The notes under the pieces are model-generated. The model made no database searches. It was not told the DNA's origin and was given only the letters and a program-made list of their open reading frames with translations. From positions 1-64,000 of the forward strand of contig JAENXC010000004.1 in NCBI GenBank assembly GCA_016649715.1: a DNA stretch of 64,000 nt, read 5' to 3'. Position 1 is the first letter of the stretch. Each line of letters starts with the position of its first letter. The position numbers and the translations under genes were made by a program. Source of the stretch: Flavobacteriaceae bacterium. Lineage in GTDB: Bacteria > Bacteroidota > Bacteroidia > Flavobacteriales > Flavobacteriaceae. This document shows, one piece after another, positions 12,367 through 57,679 of this stretch.

Positions 12367-12368
12367 TT

Positions 12369-12453
12369 TGAAATGCCCAAATGCAATTAGCTAACCAATC
12401 AAAGATGTATATTAGGGCATTACAACTTCCTATATCTAAAATATTTAATACTG
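12369..12453 (+). repeat. Dispersed leader element, copy A (short form, no central palindrome)
   Basis: 85 bp filling nearly the whole gap between the recR stop and the glycosyltransferase ATG. It shares with copies at 27541, 38947 and 56847 the 5' TGAAATGCCC, the central AAGATGTATATT and GGGCATT, and the 3' CTTCCTAT...AAATATT...AC(A/T)GATGAA, which runs into the start codon. Arms AATGCCC (12372-12378) and GGGCATT (12415-12421) can pair. The GC-rich centre of copies B and C is absent. A reading frame TTG AAA TGC stops after eight codons. Confidence 0.8.
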
Positions 12454-13575
12454 ATGAAGCTTTCCGTTGTTATCCTTAATTATAATGTGCGCTATTTTTT
12501 GGAACAGTGTATTCTTTCTGTCCAAAAGGCAATCGAAAATCTGGATGCCGAAATCATTGTGATAGACAATGATTCCAAGGACGGGAGTTGCCAAATGGTC
12601 AAGACCCTTTTTCCAAATGTTGTTTTAATTGAAAACAAAGAAAATGTGGGTTTTAGCAGAGCGAACAATCAAGCAGTTGCCGTTGCGAAAGGGGAGTACA
12701 TTTGTATTTTAAACCCCGATACAGCAGTTGCCGAAGACACCTTTAAACAAGCGATTAAATATTCTGAAAGCGTTGAGAACATCGGTGCTTTGGGTGTTTA
12801 TTTAATGGATGGTACGGGAAATTTTTTGCCCGAAAGCAAGCGCAATCTTCCCACGCCAAAAGTCTCATTGTTGAAACTTACGGGCTTTACCCAGAAATAT
12901 TACGCAAACCAGTTACCAGAAACTTCCAGTGGCGAAACAGCGGTTTTGGTCGGCGCATTTATGCTGCTCAAACGAAGTATTTACAATGAAGTGGGCGGTT
13001 TTGACGAAGACTATTTTATGTATGGCGAAGACATAGACCTATCCTATAAAATTACGCAGGCGGGTTATAAAAACCATTATTTGGGAAGCACTACAATCCT
13101 GCACTACAAAGGCGAAAGCACTAAAAAGGACGAAGCCTATTTTGAGCGGTTTTACGGTGCGATGCAGATTTTTTACAAGAAACATTTCCGCAGAAATTTT
13201 CTGTTGGAAGGTTCGGTTTCCGCTGGGGTTGCTTTGGCTAAAAAAGCACGAAAATTTTCTTCGGAAACGAAAAACAAGAAGTCCCAAAAAGTTGAAAGAA
13301 ACTATTTTTTTACAGAAAATATCGAGTTGCTCGAAAAACTTTCGGAAGCAACCGAAGCGGTTTTTCAAATAGCTTCAAAAAATGTACACTCCCAGATTAC
13401 GCTTAAAAACAGTTTGTTGGTCTTTGATGCCGAATACATTTCCTATAAAGAAATTTTCCAACTGATGAAACAGTTGAAGGGAAATAACAATCTTTTTCGC
13501 ATTCGCCCTCCCGGCTGCAATTTCATTATAGGAAGCGACCAAAGTGACGAAAAGGGCGGGGTAGTCGTTTTTTAA
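12454..13575 (+). CDS. Family 2 glycosyltransferase
   Basis: Cytosolic or membrane-associated GT-A enzyme of 373 residues. The N-terminus LSVVILNYNVRYFLEQC and IIVIDNDSKDGS are the nucleotide-sugar binding region. LNPDTAV carries the metal-binding DxD-like residue, and GGFDEDYFMYGEDIDLSYK is the acceptor-site ED motif. It resembles rhamnosyltransferase-like GT2 proteins; the sugar and acceptor are unknown. The C-terminal ~110 residues beyond the GT domain end with FRIRPPGCNFIIG and have no recognised domain. Its start codon lies at the end of leader element copy A. Confidence 0.88.
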   Translation: MKLSVVILNYNVRYFLEQCILSVQKAIENLDAEIIVIDNDSKDGSCQMVKTLFPNVVLIENKENVGFSRANNQAVAVAKGEYICILNPDTAVAEDTFKQAIKYSESVENIGALGVYLMDGTGNFLPESKRNLPTPKVSLLKLTGFTQKYYANQLPETSSGETAVLVGAFMLLKRSIYNEVGGFDEDYFMYGEDIDLSYKITQAGYKNHYLGSTTILHYKGESTKKDEAYFERFYGAMQIFYKKHFRRNFLLEGSVSAGVALAKKARKFSSETKNKKSQKVERNYFFTENIELLEKLSEATEAVFQIASKNVHSQITLKNSLLVFDAEYISYKEIFQLMKQLKGNNNLFRIRPPGCNFIIGSDQSDEKGGVVVF

Positions 13576-27411: not shown

Positions 27412-27540
27412 TTTCATATATTTAAGAGTCTAAAAACACAAAGCCACAGTATGATTTACAGAAAATAAGCAAGTCCAAACTACAAAAAACCGTTTGGCTC
27501 ATTGCATCTAAAAAAAATACTAACCAAAAATTTATACAGT

Positions 27541-27646
27541 TGAAATGCCCATTGACTAATTATAAACCAAATGAAGATGTATATTGGGGCATTCCCTGCC
27601 CGTCCGGCAGGCGGGCATCTTCCTATTTCTCAAATATTTTGTACAG
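27541..27646 (+). repeat. Dispersed leader element, copy B
   Basis: 106 bp ending at the EF-G paralogue ATG. It is 80-90% identical by eye to copy C (38947). Pairing arms are AATGCCC (27544-27550) with GGGCATT (27587-27593), or GAAGATG (27573-27579) with CATCTTC (27616-27622). A CCTGCC/GGCAGG palindrome lies at 27595-27615. A TTG-initiated frame of 36 codons (MKCPLTNYK...) ends in TGA overlapping the downstream ATG. Confidence 0.85.
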
Positions 27647-29755
27647 ATGAAAATATACGACGACAAATACATAAAAAATGTAGTTTTTGTGGGTGCACAC
27701 AACAGCGGAAAAACGACACTTGCCGAAACCATGCTTTTTGAAGCAGGTCTCCTAAACCGCCGCGGCACGGTTGAAAACAAAAACACCGTTTCCGATTATC
27801 ACGACATTGAGCACGAGCGCGGCAATTCCATCTTTGCCACCCCGCTGCACACTGAATGGCGCAATTACAAAATCAACATCATAGACACCCCCGGCTTGGA
27901 CGATTTTATAGGCGAAATCATCTCTTCCATCCGCGTTGCTGATACTATTGTTACGGTGTTGAGCGCGCAACAGGGCGTGGAAGTGGGCACAGAGATTATT
28001 TGGAATTACGTAGATAAATACCACAAACCCACCCTTTTTGTGATAAACCAAATTGACCACGTAAATGCAAAGTTTGACGAGAGTTTTAAGAGTATAAAAA
28101 ACTTGGTGGGCAACAATGCCGTGAAAATCCAATACCCTTTAATTGTGGATGGCGCTCAATGCATCATTGACGTGCTGAAGATGAAATTGTACAAATTCTC
28201 CCCCGATGGAGGAAAGCCCGAAAAGTTGGAAATTCCCGATAATCAAAAGGAATTGGCCAACGAACTAAACAATGAATTGATAGAAAAAGCTGCAGAAAAT
28301 GATGAAACATTGATGGAGCTTTTTTTTGATAAAGGCACTTTGAACGAAGACGAAATGCGCGTTGGTATTAAAGCTGGAATGTTGAACAATGAGCTTTTTC
28401 CAGTGTTTTGTGTTTCCGCACTGAACGATATGGGTACGGGCAGATTGATGGGTTTCATAGACAATGTGGCACCCGCAGCAGCCGATTTAAAACCCGAGCA
28501 AAGTGTGGAAGGGAAAGAAGTGATGGCTAAAAAGGAAAGTCCAACGGCATTGTTCGTTTTTAAAACGGTCTATCAGCCCAATTTGGGCCAAATCACTTTC
28601 TTTAAGGTGATGAGCGGAGAAGTTCGCCTGAACGACAAACTCATCAATTCCCGAAATGACGAAACAGAGATAATAAACCAACTTTTTATAATGGACGGAA
28701 AAGAGCGGCAACCCGTTACCAAGTTGACCGTGGGCGATATTGGCGCCACTTTGAAACTGAAGTTTACGGAAACCAATGATACCTTGGCTTCATCAAAGAA
28801 CAAAGTTGAGATCAAGCCCATTAAATTTCCGCAGGCAAGAGTAAAAAAGGCTGTTTTTGCAGTAAACACCAAAGACGAAGAAAAACTCAGTGAGTCCTTA
28901 AGGAAAATTCACAGCCAAGACCCCACAGTGGATATTTCCTTTTCAAAAGAGGGCAAACAGCTTATACTTTCCTGTCAGGGCGATCTGCATCTGGCTACGA
29001 TAGATTGGATATTGAAAAATGTTTACAACGTGGAAGCAAGTTTCGAAAAACCAAAAATTGCTTTCCGAGAAACCATTCAACGCTCTTCATCTTCAAATTA
29101 TAGGCATAAAAAGCAGTCAGGCGGTTCCGGGCAGTTTGCGGAGGTTCACTTAAAAATTGAACCTTGGTATGAAGGTATGGAAGAGCCACAAGGTTTCAAT
29201 ATCCGCGGAAAGGAAGAAGTGGATCTTGCTTGGGGCGGAAAATTGGTTTTCTACAACTGTATTGTGGGCGGGGTGATAGATCAGCGCTATTTGCCGTCAA
29301 TAATGAAAGGTGTTTTGGAAGTGATGGAAGAAGGCCCGTTGGTTAATTCATACATCCGCGATATACGCGTTATGGTTTATGACGGCAAAATGCACTCTGT
29401 AGATTCAAATGATATTTCCTTTAAAATTGCGGGAGCACACGCGTTCAAAGAAGCTTTTTTGAATGCCAATCCAAAACTTTTGGAACCCGTTTTGGAGCTA
29501 ACCGTGAAAGTGCCTGAAGAAATGGTGGGAAACGTGATGACCGATCTGCAAGCGCGCCGCTCGATGATTCAAGGGATAGAAAGCAACAACAACTATCAAG
29601 TGTTAAAATGTCTCACACCAGAGGCCGAACTCTATGGTTTTTCAACAGATTTGCGGTCGTTGACGCAGGGCAGAGCGACGTTTAAATCTGCATTTTCGTC
29701 CTATCAGCCTGTTCCGGCGAATGTTCAAAAGGAATTGGTCCGTCAATCAGAATAA
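27647..29755 (+). CDS. EF-G family protein, probable EF-G2-type paralogue
   Basis: 702 residues with all five EF-G domains. G1 is GAHNSGKT (16-23), switch region ERGNSIFATP, G4 is NQID and G5 SALN. The G3 motif reads DTPGLDD, so the catalytic His of the usual DTPGH is Leu84. Domain IV has QSGGSGQFAEV in place of a fully standard sequence. Loss of that His fits an EF-G paralogue with little or no GTPase activity, as described for Bacteroides EF-G2. It is probably not the main EF-G. ATG 27647 was chosen because upstream sequence belongs to leader copy B. Confidence 0.87.
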   Translation: MKIYDDKYIKNVVFVGAHNSGKTTLAETMLFEAGLLNRRGTVENKNTVSDYHDIEHERGNSIFATPLHTEWRNYKINIIDTPGLDDFIGEIISSIRVADTIVTVLSAQQGVEVGTEIIWNYVDKYHKPTLFVINQIDHVNAKFDESFKSIKNLVGNNAVKIQYPLIVDGAQCIIDVLKMKLYKFSPDGGKPEKLEIPDNQKELANELNNELIEKAAENDETLMELFFDKGTLNEDEMRVGIKAGMLNNELFPVFCVSALNDMGTGRLMGFIDNVAPAAADLKPEQSVEGKEVMAKKESPTALFVFKTVYQPNLGQITFFKVMSGEVRLNDKLINSRNDETEIINQLFIMDGKERQPVTKLTVGDIGATLKLKFTETNDTLASSKNKVEIKPIKFPQARVKKAVFAVNTKDEEKLSESLRKIHSQDPTVDISFSKEGKQLILSCQGDLHLATIDWILKNVYNVEASFEKPKIAFRETIQRSSSSNYRHKKQSGGSGQFAEVHLKIEPWYEGMEEPQGFNIRGKEEVDLAWGGKLVFYNCIVGGVIDQRYLPSIMKGVLEVMEEGPLVNSYIRDIRVMVYDGKMHSVDSNDISFKIAGAHAFKEAFLNANPKLLEPVLELTVKVPEEMVGNVMTDLQARRSMIQGIESNNNYQVLKCLTPEAELYGFSTDLRSLTQGRATFKSAFSSYQPVPANVQKELVRQSE

Positions 29756-38751: not shown

Positions 38752-38949
38752 ATGTTGAGATTTATAAAAGGAAACCTCGAAAACATTGATGATGTTCAAA
38801 TATATCCAATGATTTCACTTATAATATTCTTCGTCTTCTTTGTGGTGCTTTTTTATTGGGTATTCACAGCAAAGAAAGAGCACATTGACGAAGTGAGCAA
38901 TATTCCTTTGGAGGATGATACAAACAACCAAAACGAAAATCAGTTATGA
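38752..38949 (+). CDS. ccoQ: Cbb3 oxidase subunit CcoQ (FixQ)
   Basis: 65 residues with one membrane helix (ISLIIFFVFFVVLFYWVF) and a charged tail (AKKEHIDEVSNIPLEDD), the CcoQ pattern. It stabilises the oxidase. Its TGA stop is also the first three bases of leader copy C, and ATG 38946 overlaps the stop as ATGA, so any leader reading frame would be translationally coupled to it. Confidence 0.93.
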   Translation: MLRFIKGNLENIDDVQIYPMISLIIFFVFFVVLFYWVFTAKKEHIDEVSNIPLEDDTNNQNENQL

Positions 38950-39052
38950 AATGTCCATTAACAAATTGTAAACTAACCGAAGATGTATATTGGGGCATTC
39001 CCTGCCCGACCGACAGGCGGGCATCTTCCTATTTATCAAATATTATATACAG
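38947..39052 (+). repeat. Dispersed leader element, copy C, filling the ccoQ-ccoP junction
   Basis: 106 bp running exactly from the ccoQ stop (TGA) to the ccoP start (ATG 39053). It includes the central palindrome CCTGCCCGACCGACAGGCGGG-like (39001-39021) and the same pairing arms as copy B. A 36-codon frame from ATG 38946 (MKCPLTNCKLTED...) ends with TGA at 39054-39056, overlapping the ccoP ATG. Both ends are thus ATGA junctions. Confidence 0.85.
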
Positions 39053-40030
39053 ATGAAAACCACAAACTCATATTTAAGGGTCATCGGCTTTATGATCCTT
39101 GCCTTTTTTTTAATGGAACTCATCATTGATTCCGGCGAAGCGTGGGCAATCGTGAAATATCCAGTTATTTGGGTAGTCTTGGGAATGGTGTTTTTCTTCG
39201 CCATTGCTTTGGAAATAATTGTCGCAGCACTGCAACGCATTCTTTTTTCGGGATTGACTCCTGAAGCAAAAGAAAACTATTTGGCTGCGGAAAAAGTGAG
39301 GGAACAAAATCGTTTTGGTTGGATAAAAAGAAAATACGTAGAAATGCTCGGGGCCAAACCAATGTCGAAGGAAAGCGAAATTGTATTGGACCACAATTAT
39401 GACGGCATCCGCGAGCTGGACAACAAACTTCCGCCGTGGTGGACATACCTATTCTATGTTTCCATTGTTTTTGGAGTAGCTTATTTTGTGTATTATGAAG
39501 TATTTGATGGCCCAAGCCAAATTGACGAATACGAAACCGATGTTGCAGAAGCACAGGTAGCCATTGCCGAATTCAAGAAAAACAACAAAGATCTGATAGA
39601 TGCTGAATCTGTTGAACAATTGACAGATCCTGCTGATATTGCTGCTGGAAAAACCATTTTTACCGAGAACTGCGTGGCTTGTCATAAAGATGGCGGTGCA
39701 GGTGGAATTGGTCCAAACCTTACCGATGACAACTGGATTTTGGGTGGTGGTATTAAAAACGTTTTCCACACTGTTAGTGAAGGTGGCCGAGCCGGAAAAG
39801 GGATGATTGCCTGGAAATCCGATTTAAAACCAAGCGAAATTGCACAAGTGGCGAGCTATGTTTTGAGTCTCCACGGAACAAACCCTCCAGATGCCAAGGC
39901 CCCTGAAGGAGATATTTGGACCGATGGAAACACTCCGGTTGATGTAAATGCGAAAACGGTTGATTCTACACAAACAAATGTTGAAACCACAAATGCTGCT
40001 GTTACTGACAGCATAAAACCAGGGAATTAA
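39053..40030 (+). CDS. ccoP: Cbb3 oxidase subunit III, monohaem CcoP
   Basis: 325 residues. The N-terminus has two membrane helices (VIGFMILAFFLMELI, VIWVVLGMVFFFAIALEIIVAAL), then a linker and a third helix (TYLFYVSIVFGVAYFVYY). The periplasmic domain has a single haem c motif, CVACH, with Met ligand in KGMIAWKSDL. Proteobacterial CcoP has two haems. The C-terminal ~50 residues are low-complexity. ATG 39053 is at the end of leader copy C; any longer form would contain the repeat. Confidence 0.93.
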   Translation: MKTTNSYLRVIGFMILAFFLMELIIDSGEAWAIVKYPVIWVVLGMVFFFAIALEIIVAALQRILFSGLTPEAKENYLAAEKVREQNRFGWIKRKYVEMLGAKPMSKESEIVLDHNYDGIRELDNKLPPWWTYLFYVSIVFGVAYFVYYEVFDGPSQIDEYETDVAEAQVAIAEFKKNNKDLIDAESVEQLTDPADIAAGKTIFTENCVACHKDGGAGGIGPNLTDDNWILGGGIKNVFHTVSEGGRAGKGMIAWKSDLKPSEIAQVASYVLSLHGTNPPDAKAPEGDIWTDGNTPVDVNAKTVDSTQTNVETTNAAVTDSIKPGN

Positions 40031-52287: not shown

Positions 52288-52361
52288 TCGGGATGACAAG
52301 ATTTGAACTTGCGACCCCACGCCCCCCAGACGTGTACGCTACCAGGCTGCGCTACATCCCG
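52288..52361 (-). tRNA. tRNA-Pro (anticodon GGG)
   Basis: 74 nt, all four arms pair. Acceptor CGGGATG / CATCCCG, D arm GCGC / GCGT, anticodon stem CACGT / GCGTG with loop CTGGGGG (anticodon GGG), T arm GCAAG / CTTGT with loop TTCAAAT, discriminator A. CCA is not encoded. A minus-strand box TATTTTTG (52374-52381) lies 12 nt upstream of the 5' end. Confidence 0.92.
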
Positions 52362-56222: not shown

Positions 56223-56846
56223 TCATCGACTTTCCATCTCATCCTTCCTATAAATACTAGGCAAAGAAAGATTGAAATAAACCGCGAGCAACCGAACAAT
56301 AAATACAATTGCGCCGGAAATGATAACAATAAAAGTTTCTGTAATCGGGGTAAAGTGAAGCAAGAAGTAGGCAGAGCCACCCAAAATACAAGCTGTTGCA
56401 TAAATTTCCTTTCTAAAGATTATGGGGATTTCATTACAGAGTATATCACGAAGCACACCTCCAAAACAAGCCGTTATCGTTCCCAAAGCGATGCAAATTA
56501 TAGGCGGAAAACCAGCGGCAATGCCTTTCTCAACCCCAACGATTGTGTAAAGCGCAATCCCAATGGTATCAAATAAAAGCAGCGAACGGCGGATATAATT
56601 CAACCTTCTTCTGAAAATGACCGCCAACACCGTGGAACCGAAAATAACGTAAACAAAAGTTAGGTTCCGCATCCATGCTACGGGAACATCAATAAGCATA
56701 TCCCGCAAAGTTCCACCACCAACTGCAGTTACAAAAGCGATTATCAGAATGCCAAATGGATCCAATCGTTTGTTGAGAGCCGTTAGCACTCCCGAAATGG
56801 CGAATGCGATGGTCCCTAGAATATCTATTAAAAGTATCAGTTTCAT
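56223..56846 (-). CDS. TRIC-type / UPF0126 membrane protein
   Basis: 207 residues with about six or seven membrane helices in two repeats: GTIAFAISGVLTALNKRLDPFGILIIAFVTAVGGGTLRDML and IGIALYTIVGVEKGIAAG...ITACFGGVLRDILCNEIP, with the paired GGGTLRD / FGGVLRD motif. Prokaryotic TRIC channels conduct K+. ATG 56846 is at the end of leader copy D; the ORF can be read further upstream into that repeat, but it is not part of this family. Confidence 0.9.
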   Translation of the reverse strand: MKLILLIDILGTIAFAISGVLTALNKRLDPFGILIIAFVTAVGGGTLRDMLIDVPVAWMRNLTFVYVIFGSTVLAVIFRRRLNYIRRSLLLFDTIGIALYTIVGVEKGIAAGFPPIICIALGTITACFGGVLRDILCNEIPIIFRKEIYATACILGGSAYFLLHFTPITETFIVIISGAIVFIVRLLAVYFNLSLPSIYRKDEMESR

Positions 56847-56956
56847 CTGTATATAATATTTGATAAAGCGGAATGCTTCGACTGCGCTCTGCACAGGAAT
56901 GGAATGCCCAAATTATACATCTTCGTTTGGTTTATCAATTTTCAATAGGTATTTCA
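56847..56956 (-). repeat. Dispersed leader element, copy D, with a different central insert
   Basis: 110 bp running from the RDD-gene stop TGA (56954-56956) to the TRIC-type ATG. It shares the 5' TGAAATACCTATTGA, AAACCAAACGAAGATGTAT, GGGCATTCC and 3' TATCAAATATTATATACAG. The GC-rich centre of copies B and C is replaced by a GAGCGCAGTCGAAG-type core. A GTG-initiated frame stops after 14 codons (MKYLLKIDKPNEDV). Confidence 0.82.
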
Positions 56957-57679
56957 CATGTTCTGGGTAAAATGGTTATAATCGCGTAAAATGGTATCTA
57001 TATATTGTTTATCATATAAATCGGAAGAAGTTTCCAAAACACTTTCCACTTTTTTCCGAAGTGCATTCAAGGTTTTAAAATCATTGGATTTCATGGCAAT
57101 AAGATAGGTTTCTTTAATAAGCCGCGCATCTTTGTCGGTCAGTTTGGTCACGTTCAAAAACTTCGGTTGGTAATCTTCTGCTATTTCTTCTAAAATAGTG
57201 TGGCTTATTTTCACTGTGCTTTTTGTGCTTATAACAACCGTGCCCGCGGCGTGGTCGCCTACGCGTTGCCGTTTATCCGAAAAAATAATGGAGAGCAAGC
57301 CGATGGAGCCCAAAAAGATCCAAATATCAACCAAACGGAGCAACCACAAAACCATATAATCGCTCCAACGGGCTGGGCTTCCATCTACTTTTACCACTCG
57401 GGTTTTCATCGCCATTTTGCCCACTGTTCTTCCGTTGAAAAGTATGTGCATATAAAGCGAATAGAACATTACGGGCAAAAGCAATAATTGCTGCAAGCCG
57501 AAAACGGTCCAATGGTCGCTAAAAGCCATATTCATAGTTTCCGTGGCCAATTCAACCAAATAGAAATACACAAAAAAGAGAAAGAAATCTATTAAAAAAG
57601 CGAGAATACGCTCGCCCACACTTACTATTTTGTAGTCTAGGTTTACGTTTTGAGTTGTATTGATTTCTAAGTTTGCCAT
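56954..57679 (-). CDS. RDD family membrane protein
   Basis: 241 residues from ATG 57679. The RDD domain: VSVGERILAFLIDFFLFFVYF (motif near the N-terminus), then LFNGRTVGKMAMKTRVV and a second helix pair, QRVGDHAAGTVVIS. The C-terminal ~70 residues are soluble. Its neighbours suggest it is tied to the MoxR/DUF58 cluster read in the other direction, with only 39 nt between the start codons. The TGA stop is shared with leader copy D. Confidence 0.9.
   Translation of the reverse strand: MANLEINTTQNVNLDYKIVSVGERILAFLIDFFLFFVYFYLVELATETMNMAFSDHWTVFGLQQLLLLPVMFYSLYMHILFNGRTVGKMAMKTRVVKVDGSPARWSDYMVLWLLRLVDIWIFLGSIGLLSIIFSDKRQRVGDHAAGTVVISTKSTVKISHTILEEIAEDYQPKFLNVTKLTDKDARLIKETYLIAMKSNDFKTLNALRKKVESVLETSSDLYDKQYIDTILRDYNHFTQNM

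Follow-up and report, generated by a model that had tools for sequence, protein, structure and literature searches.

A short DNA element of about 86–90 nt (later inserts excluded) stands directly before unrelated genes in the window, by which is meant the whole 64,000 nt stretch of Flavobacteriaceae DNA analysed here. The element is real, abundant and mobile, and apparently uncatalogued. It is probably a short, non-autonomous transposable element that moves in a single-strand mode driven in trans, with a guide sequence placing the cut and with preferential retention of copies at start codons. The element, which is abundant in Bacteroidota and docks on start codons, is absent from the family libraries and the literature searched. 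It rewrites the 5′ leaders of unrelated genes in a phylum that initiates translation without Shine-Dalgarno sequences, so that filled and empty alleles provide ready-made initiation experiments.

Sequence and Structure of the Element

The unit reads ATGCCC–loop–GGGCATTCCATNTG–A-rich loop–CANATGAA and is inserted directly 3′ of a site ending in GAA, usually ATGAA. Across genera the consensus is (NTGAA) ATGCCC–loop–GGGCATTCC ATNTG–A-rich loop–CAN ATGAA, and the right end is ATGAA or, rarely, GTGAA (L086, L332). The first helix (stem 1) has the main form AATGCCC/GGGCATT in 63 cases, the other forms being TACCC/GGGTA (5), TCGCC/GGCGA (1) and imperfect TCGAGC-like stems (7). In helix 2, a guide (CCATNTG) pairs with the start codon and its three preceding bases, i.e., the right boundary CANATGAA, and this helix occurs in the versions CATCTG/CAGATG, CATGTG/CACATG, CATATG/CATATG and CATTAG/CTAATG.

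The copies compared derive from 119 pattern matches. Twelve were dropped because no NTGAA lay 25–90 nt beyond the pattern or the sequence was too short; these include true copies (e.g., L083, L092, L110, L118 and L150) as well as chance matches. Removal of two further chance matches (L072 and L074) left 105 copies. Of 100 copies, 67 formed all three variable pairs between guide and boundary, whereas 10,000 shuffles averaged 30.4 and never exceeded 46, the 100 being those of 107 with a guide that starts with A and contains no N (L072 and L074 out), a selection that favours the common guide. Changes on both sides were seen at four of the six pairs of helix 2 (39 sequences). A guide together with its matching boundary occurred 79 times in 1.81 Mb and not at all in shuffled DNA, a control that preserved base composition only. 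Rather than helix 2, RNAalifold favours a longer stem 1 in which the left ATG pairs with CCAT; one guide can face either boundary. As the guide varies in step with the boundary, guide-directed choice of a single-strand target is directly testable.

Copies in the Window

Four copies had been recorded in an earlier note on this DNA, and all four were found where it placed them. They match the covariance model of the wider family with scores of 61.6 (copy A), 42.3 (B), 44.1 (C) and 39.4 bits (D), the model having been built from 39 rows with copy A among them. Their limits, however, needed to be redrawn, as the element proper begins with the ATGCCC that follows the left NTGAA and ends with the right ATGAA. 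Copy A (12373–12458, plus strand) is 86 nt long, has no REP-like insert, and follows TTGAA at 12368–12372, with a GT2 gene (PF00535) downstream. Copy B (27545–27651, plus strand) follows TTGAA at 27540–27544 and lies before an EF-G-like gene, having inserted where an older leader of another kind ends. Copy C (38951–39057, plus strand; ATGTCC...CAGATGAA) is inserted after ATGAA at 38946–38950 (plus strand), the old start codon of the gene, and its right ATGAA (39053–39057, plus strand) is the present start of ccoP (FixP/CcoP family). Copy D (56842–56952, minus strand) follows GTGAA at 56957–56953 and precedes a PF03458 gene, the start of which has changed from GTG to ATG; the Pfam name of this family is 'Glycine transporter', 'TRIC-type' being the earlier wording. 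The downstream genes are unrelated, as had been noted, and it is likewise correct that in copies C and D the upstream frame terminates at the left TGA and that the stop upstream of copy A ends 2 nt ahead of the copy.

Copies B, C and D carry REP-like hairpins of 20–26 nt after GGGCATTCC, which are missing from the other copies. Those of B (27596–27615, plus strand) and C (39002–39021, plus strand) are GC-rich, and the latter forms the gap separating the two conserved halves of its copy. The hairpin of D (56875–56900, minus strand) is of a different kind but sits at the same point. This one point, between GGGCATTCC and ATCTTCC, has received REP-like hairpins of at least three kinds (the window; L017, L019 and L020) and looks like a preferred target of REP-like repeats.

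No curated Rfam family matched the window copies or 16 further loci at gathering thresholds. Literature searches found no paper on the element, nor any that combined 'Bacteroidetes' with ATGAAATGCCC, in agreement with the previous statement that no named element has this sequence. The only Rfam match in the window is a tRNA gene at 52288–52361 on the minus strand.

Empty Sites in Related Genomes

Empty sites were sought at 56 fetched places, covering copies B, C and D and two further genes of the window's genome (copy A and two other genes were left out). Of 14 relatives compared at the site of copy C, 12 are empty, with ATGAAA present once (...GTT|ATGAAAACC...), one is filled and one is unclear. 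At the site of copy D, 10 of 11 relatives have a GTGAA start, while the remaining one carries a degraded copy. The site is empty in 8 of 11 relatives for one of the two further genes and in 10 of 10 for the other.

Since copy D keeps GTGAA on its left and has ATGAA on its right, the latter is part of the element, and a gene struck at its start retains an ATGAA start. A target of NTGAA also accounts for the stop-to-start placement, since insertion at an overlapping stop and start (ATGA) leaves the stop on the left while the element gives a new start. Left flanks other than NTGAA exist (CAGGAA in G048; AAGAA and ACGAA in G043), and together with the differing ends of copy D they argue against plain target duplication. 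Judging from these sequences, the right start codon is carried by the element, and insertion 3′ of NTGAA creates no true target duplication. An insertion element landing from stop to start had been the second idea of the earlier note, and it is borne out by the empty sites and by the identical dispersed copies and tandem arrays described below. The contrary case, in which the copies would be parts of a degenerate transposon with terminal repeats, found no counterpart, as neither terminal inverted repeats nor a true target duplication was present in the element.

Abundance and Distribution

The previous total of four copies was too low, and the repeats are not a product of chance. BLAST with copy C gave 15 matches in the window's genome, corresponding to 14 places (two rows being halves of one copy, and copy A being absent), while the covariance model search proposed earlier gave at least 27 matches there at E ≤ 0.01 and further copies in related genomes. 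At the same threshold there are at least 121 in Algoriphagus alkaliphilus (G043), at least 118 in Pleomorphovibrio marinus (G044), at least 55 in A. aquaeductus (G048), and at least 47, at least 33, at least 21 and at least 9 in four other genomes, all of these counts being drawn from at most 150 scored candidates per genome.

Among relatives, matches were found in 19 of 39 genomes (own included), that is, in 19 of 24 genomes of the same genus and in none of the 15 others. In an even sample of the phylum (395 genomes, own included), 19 matched at E ≤ 1e-4 under stricter filters. An exact-pattern scan of GTDB genomes found at least 118 stretches, and the 80 with titles come mostly from Aequorivita, Algoriphagus, Pleomorphovibrio, Sinomicrobium and other Bacteroidota. 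The few GTDB matches from other phyla have no right boundary of the element's kind and look like chance. Plasmid and phage records contained no match to the element. One copy in Aequorivita aquimaris (L066) is identical in sequence to a copy from the window's genus (L035). At L134, a copy apparently lies inside a reading frame that looks Fic-like from its motif.

Recent Movement and Possible Loss

Ten copies at different places in A. aquaeductus (G048) are identical over 89 nt, and four more, of another subtype, are identical to one another, a count that covers 16 of the 27 places. The left flanks of the ten recent copies are CATGAA (five), TATGAA (two), GATGAA (two) and CAGGAA (one), and at least three of them stand directly behind another unit. 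Neighbouring units in tandem have one TGAA in common. Tandem arrays of differing stem 1 types lie before one gene in Algoriphagus alkaliphilus (L052, L127), with identical 89 nt units of the TACCC type in succession.

The site before the MKQL gene (25 loci, L347–L371) is filled in 8 loci, empty in 12 and not anchored in 5. A tree built from 1150 bases of DNA downstream of this site pairs G012 (empty) with G022 (filled) as sisters, with a support of 1.0, in an otherwise filled group. The element may have been lost exactly here, the alternative reading of the G012/G022 pair being allele replacement, which we counted against the transposition model. G017 and G022 have nearly the same copy, yet are apart in the tree, which makes allele exchange at this locus probable. 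The empty alleles have, some 10 nt upstream of the ATG, a TAACTTGC box that we take to be promoter-like. With the box so near the ATG, the mRNA of the empty alleles may be nearly leaderless, and the element would give it an 86 nt leader.

Association with Start Codons

A copy was scored as lying at a start if an open frame of at least 60 codons ran from its right ATG, which places the leading unit of a tandem among the non-starts. By this measure 79 of the 105 copies are at starts, against a background of 165 gene starts among 589 non-coding ATGAA sites (28%) in 106 of the same loci (binomial probability 1.5e-23). A frame follows 14 of the 15 copies inspected in the window's genome, L012 being the exception. 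The ten recent copies show no such excess: four are at starts (p = 0.30 relative to expectation), a lower share than that of the full set (Fisher p = 0.027, the sets overlapping). Retention rather than aiming may therefore explain the association, and we read this as an enzyme that selects ATGAA and a host that retains the copies at start codons. In Flavobacterium johnsoniae, adenines at −3 and −12/−13 favour initiation, according to the excerpted text of that study (PMC6847099). The 3′ part of the element is A-rich, and by analogy it may be tied to this preference for adenine.

It is conceivable, if rather doubtful, that the start codon itself is what is read. The guide would pair with NATGAA, so that the transposition machinery would recognise the start-codon sequence; insertion would swap the start and leader of a gene while leaving its protein unchanged, and excision would be scarless. 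If true, this would be a natural, base-pairing-guided exchange of translation initiation regions across a genome. Less weight was given to it because of the lack of a start excess among recent copies and the allele exchange in the MKQL tree. Splicing or ribosome bypass, considered because of the ATGAA at both ends, should make copies within genes common and was set aside on that reasoning.

Comparison with Known Systems

As far as the sources consulted describe them, elements of the IS200/IS605 family (IS608, ISDra2) and the non-autonomous PATEs also have no inverted repeats, insert 3′ of a short target that is retained, and use an internal guide that pairs with the target. They share with the present element subterminal hairpins, here stem 1 and helix 2, which show changes on both sides and are worn in the window copies. 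For IS608, the portion of the account available (PMC5934647) describes a short target retained in the left flank, a guide that pairs with the target, and exact excision; the resemblance lies in insertion 3′ of a retained target, hairpins and a pairing guide. There are also differences. IS200/IS605 guides lie 5′ of each hairpin, whereas the element has a single guide 3′ of hairpin 1, and unlike that of IS608 it pairs antiparallel with the right boundary and can also pair with the left; this arrangement was counted against the transposition model. The boundary of the element, unlike those of IS200/IS605, is a start-codon sequence.

REP sequences and their RAYT enzymes offer a second parallel, being short hairpin repeats in high copy number that a Y1 enzyme presumably mobilises in trans (PMC6006769, in the parts seen). 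They have a GT[AG]G foot and a 20–40 nt palindrome flanking the transposase gene, whereas the consensus of the element has no such foot, and the element is larger, has two hairpins and is placed at gene starts. The same parts of that paper report that Bacteroidetes TnpA-REP (RAYT) genes of subclass 2.6 are flanked by 'atypical secondary structures' with copies elsewhere; the element may be identical with some of these. MITEs of DDE transposons are likewise short, non-autonomous and dispersed, but the element is without their terminal inverted repeats and true target duplication. In Beggiatoaceae, TAACTGA repeats are dispersed directly before the start codons of unrelated genes (PMC4679880, from the sections available); unlike the element, these are seven-base tandem repeats of another sequence and, in those sections, form no defined insertion unit.

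On the preferred transposition model, the element would move in single-stranded form, the DNA being cut in trans by an enzyme that, by analogy with IS200/IS605, would most likely be a Y1 HUH transposase. The guide after hairpin 1 would pair with the boundary and so place the cut, and excision would be exact. Copies at start codons would be retained, since translation could continue with the new start codon and the A-rich stretch preceding it, whereas other copies would be lost.

Search for the Driver Enzyme

Unlike the situation in IS200/IS605, no Y1 transposase gene with the element's ends was found among the Y1 loci scanned, and this counts against the Y1 model. Model scans of 16 and 30 PF01797 loci found none flanked by the element on both sides; elements lie near such loci at L237, L310 and L312, with weak matches at L227, L238 and L308. 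PF01797 has no match in the copy-bearing genomes G046, G047, G049 (incomplete) and G234, also counted against the model, and G046 and G234 have weak matches to a second Y1 profile. Subclass-2.6-like Y1 genes gave matches in 9 of 11 genomes at E ≤ 0.001, several of them weak or fragmentary, and none of the 20 loci scanned with the model, out of 22, had the element on both sides (L394 and L396, which overlap L391, were left out).

The element was found inside subclass-2.6-like transposase genes. A copy at 1659–1744 of L237 (L237/L391) interrupts one Y1 gene, and in G242 a copy lies inside a related Y1 gene, at two contig ends with the same junctions (L388/L395). One of the interrupted-Y1 junctions is at the gene's own GAA|ATGCCC, letters that match the left junction of the element. 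The Y1 genes inspected carry other palindromes. No autonomous copy was seen: all 27 GGGCATTCCATNTG sites in G048 and all 46 in G043 lie within units with a left arm nearby, the arms having been located by pattern at 25 and 40 sites and by reading or a full-length model match at the remaining 2 and 6, with the right boundary in G043 not confirmed site by site.

As the element's ends are on no Y1 gene scanned, other drivers come into view, namely a site-specific recombinase whose core is TGAA, a reverse transcriptase that uses mRNA close to start codons, or an IS91-like HUH enzyme; together these seem rather unlikely. The short TGAA common to both ends would suit a recombinase, but left flanks other than TGAA exist. 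Sense orientation at starts would fit the mRNA route, but the recent copies, with 4 of 10 at starts (p = 0.30), do not share the excess. Against non-Y1 enzymes in general, the pairing guide and hairpins have a precedent in IS200/IS605.

Folding and Regulatory Readings

The start codon lies within helix 2, which covaries across the family, and the element might thus be a structured 5′ leader controlling translation, in which the start codon is masked by helix 2 and released by another pairing, transposition being secondary. We consider this unlikely. Stem 1 agrees with it, being 97.7% paired in 25 copies of the window's genus, with changes on both sides in these old copies and a CCG/CGG paired change within one orthologous site (before the MKQL gene) in G017 and G022. 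One Pleomorphovibrio copy folds better than 200 of 200 shuffles (z −3.57), and the four window copies resemble shuffles in their folding (z −1.06, 0.04, −0.94 and 0.60). Helix 2, however, is worn in the same 25 copies (80% of cells paired, the outermost pair in 7 of 25), and such wear in old gene-start copies is the opposite of what control of the start codon needs; it was counted against the transposition model as well. In addition, presence is patchy among close relatives, and 6 of the 10 recent copies have no 60-codon frame behind them.

The lack of covariation in the alternative stem counts against such a leader as well. An attenuator with two mutually exclusive stems was the first idea of the earlier note, and it fell with the patchy presence and the absence of covariation in the second stem: GAAGATG/CATCTTC scored 0.080 in the 25 copies of the window's genus against 0.075 when shuffled, with 167 of 500 as high, so that of the two stems proposed for a covariation check only stem 1 covaries. 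One resident copy (G003, at the MKQL site) has a paired change in the GAAGATG/CATCTTC stem. Both stems had been assigned to copies B and C; copy C has TGTCC, so stem 1 requires a G-U pair there, and copy D forms neither stem without a mismatch. On the sequence comparisons, resident copies may have a role in regulation.

A conserved leader peptide (MKCPLTN...SNILYR), read from the left ATG in many Aequorivita copies with its TGA overlapping the gene's ATG, is highly improbable and was rejected for want of a coding signal: the frame is open to the overlapping TGA in 14 of 43 copies and of fitting length in 28 of 43, but an earlier stop occurs in 25 of 43, divergence is equal at the three codon positions (0.276, 0.296 and 0.269; 16 copies), and codon 5 is a stop in 54 of the 105 copies of the broad set, whose lengths are spread over the three frames as 42/32/31.

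The older leader before the EF-G-like gene (CCAAAC...GTTTGG, then CATCTG...CAGATGAAA) lies at 27490–27539 and is worn in the window. It is present in all ten relatives fetched (L192–L201), where it carries CATCTG/CAGATG, and the element itself is in none of the ten. It may be distantly related to the element, or else be a conserved leader in its own right.
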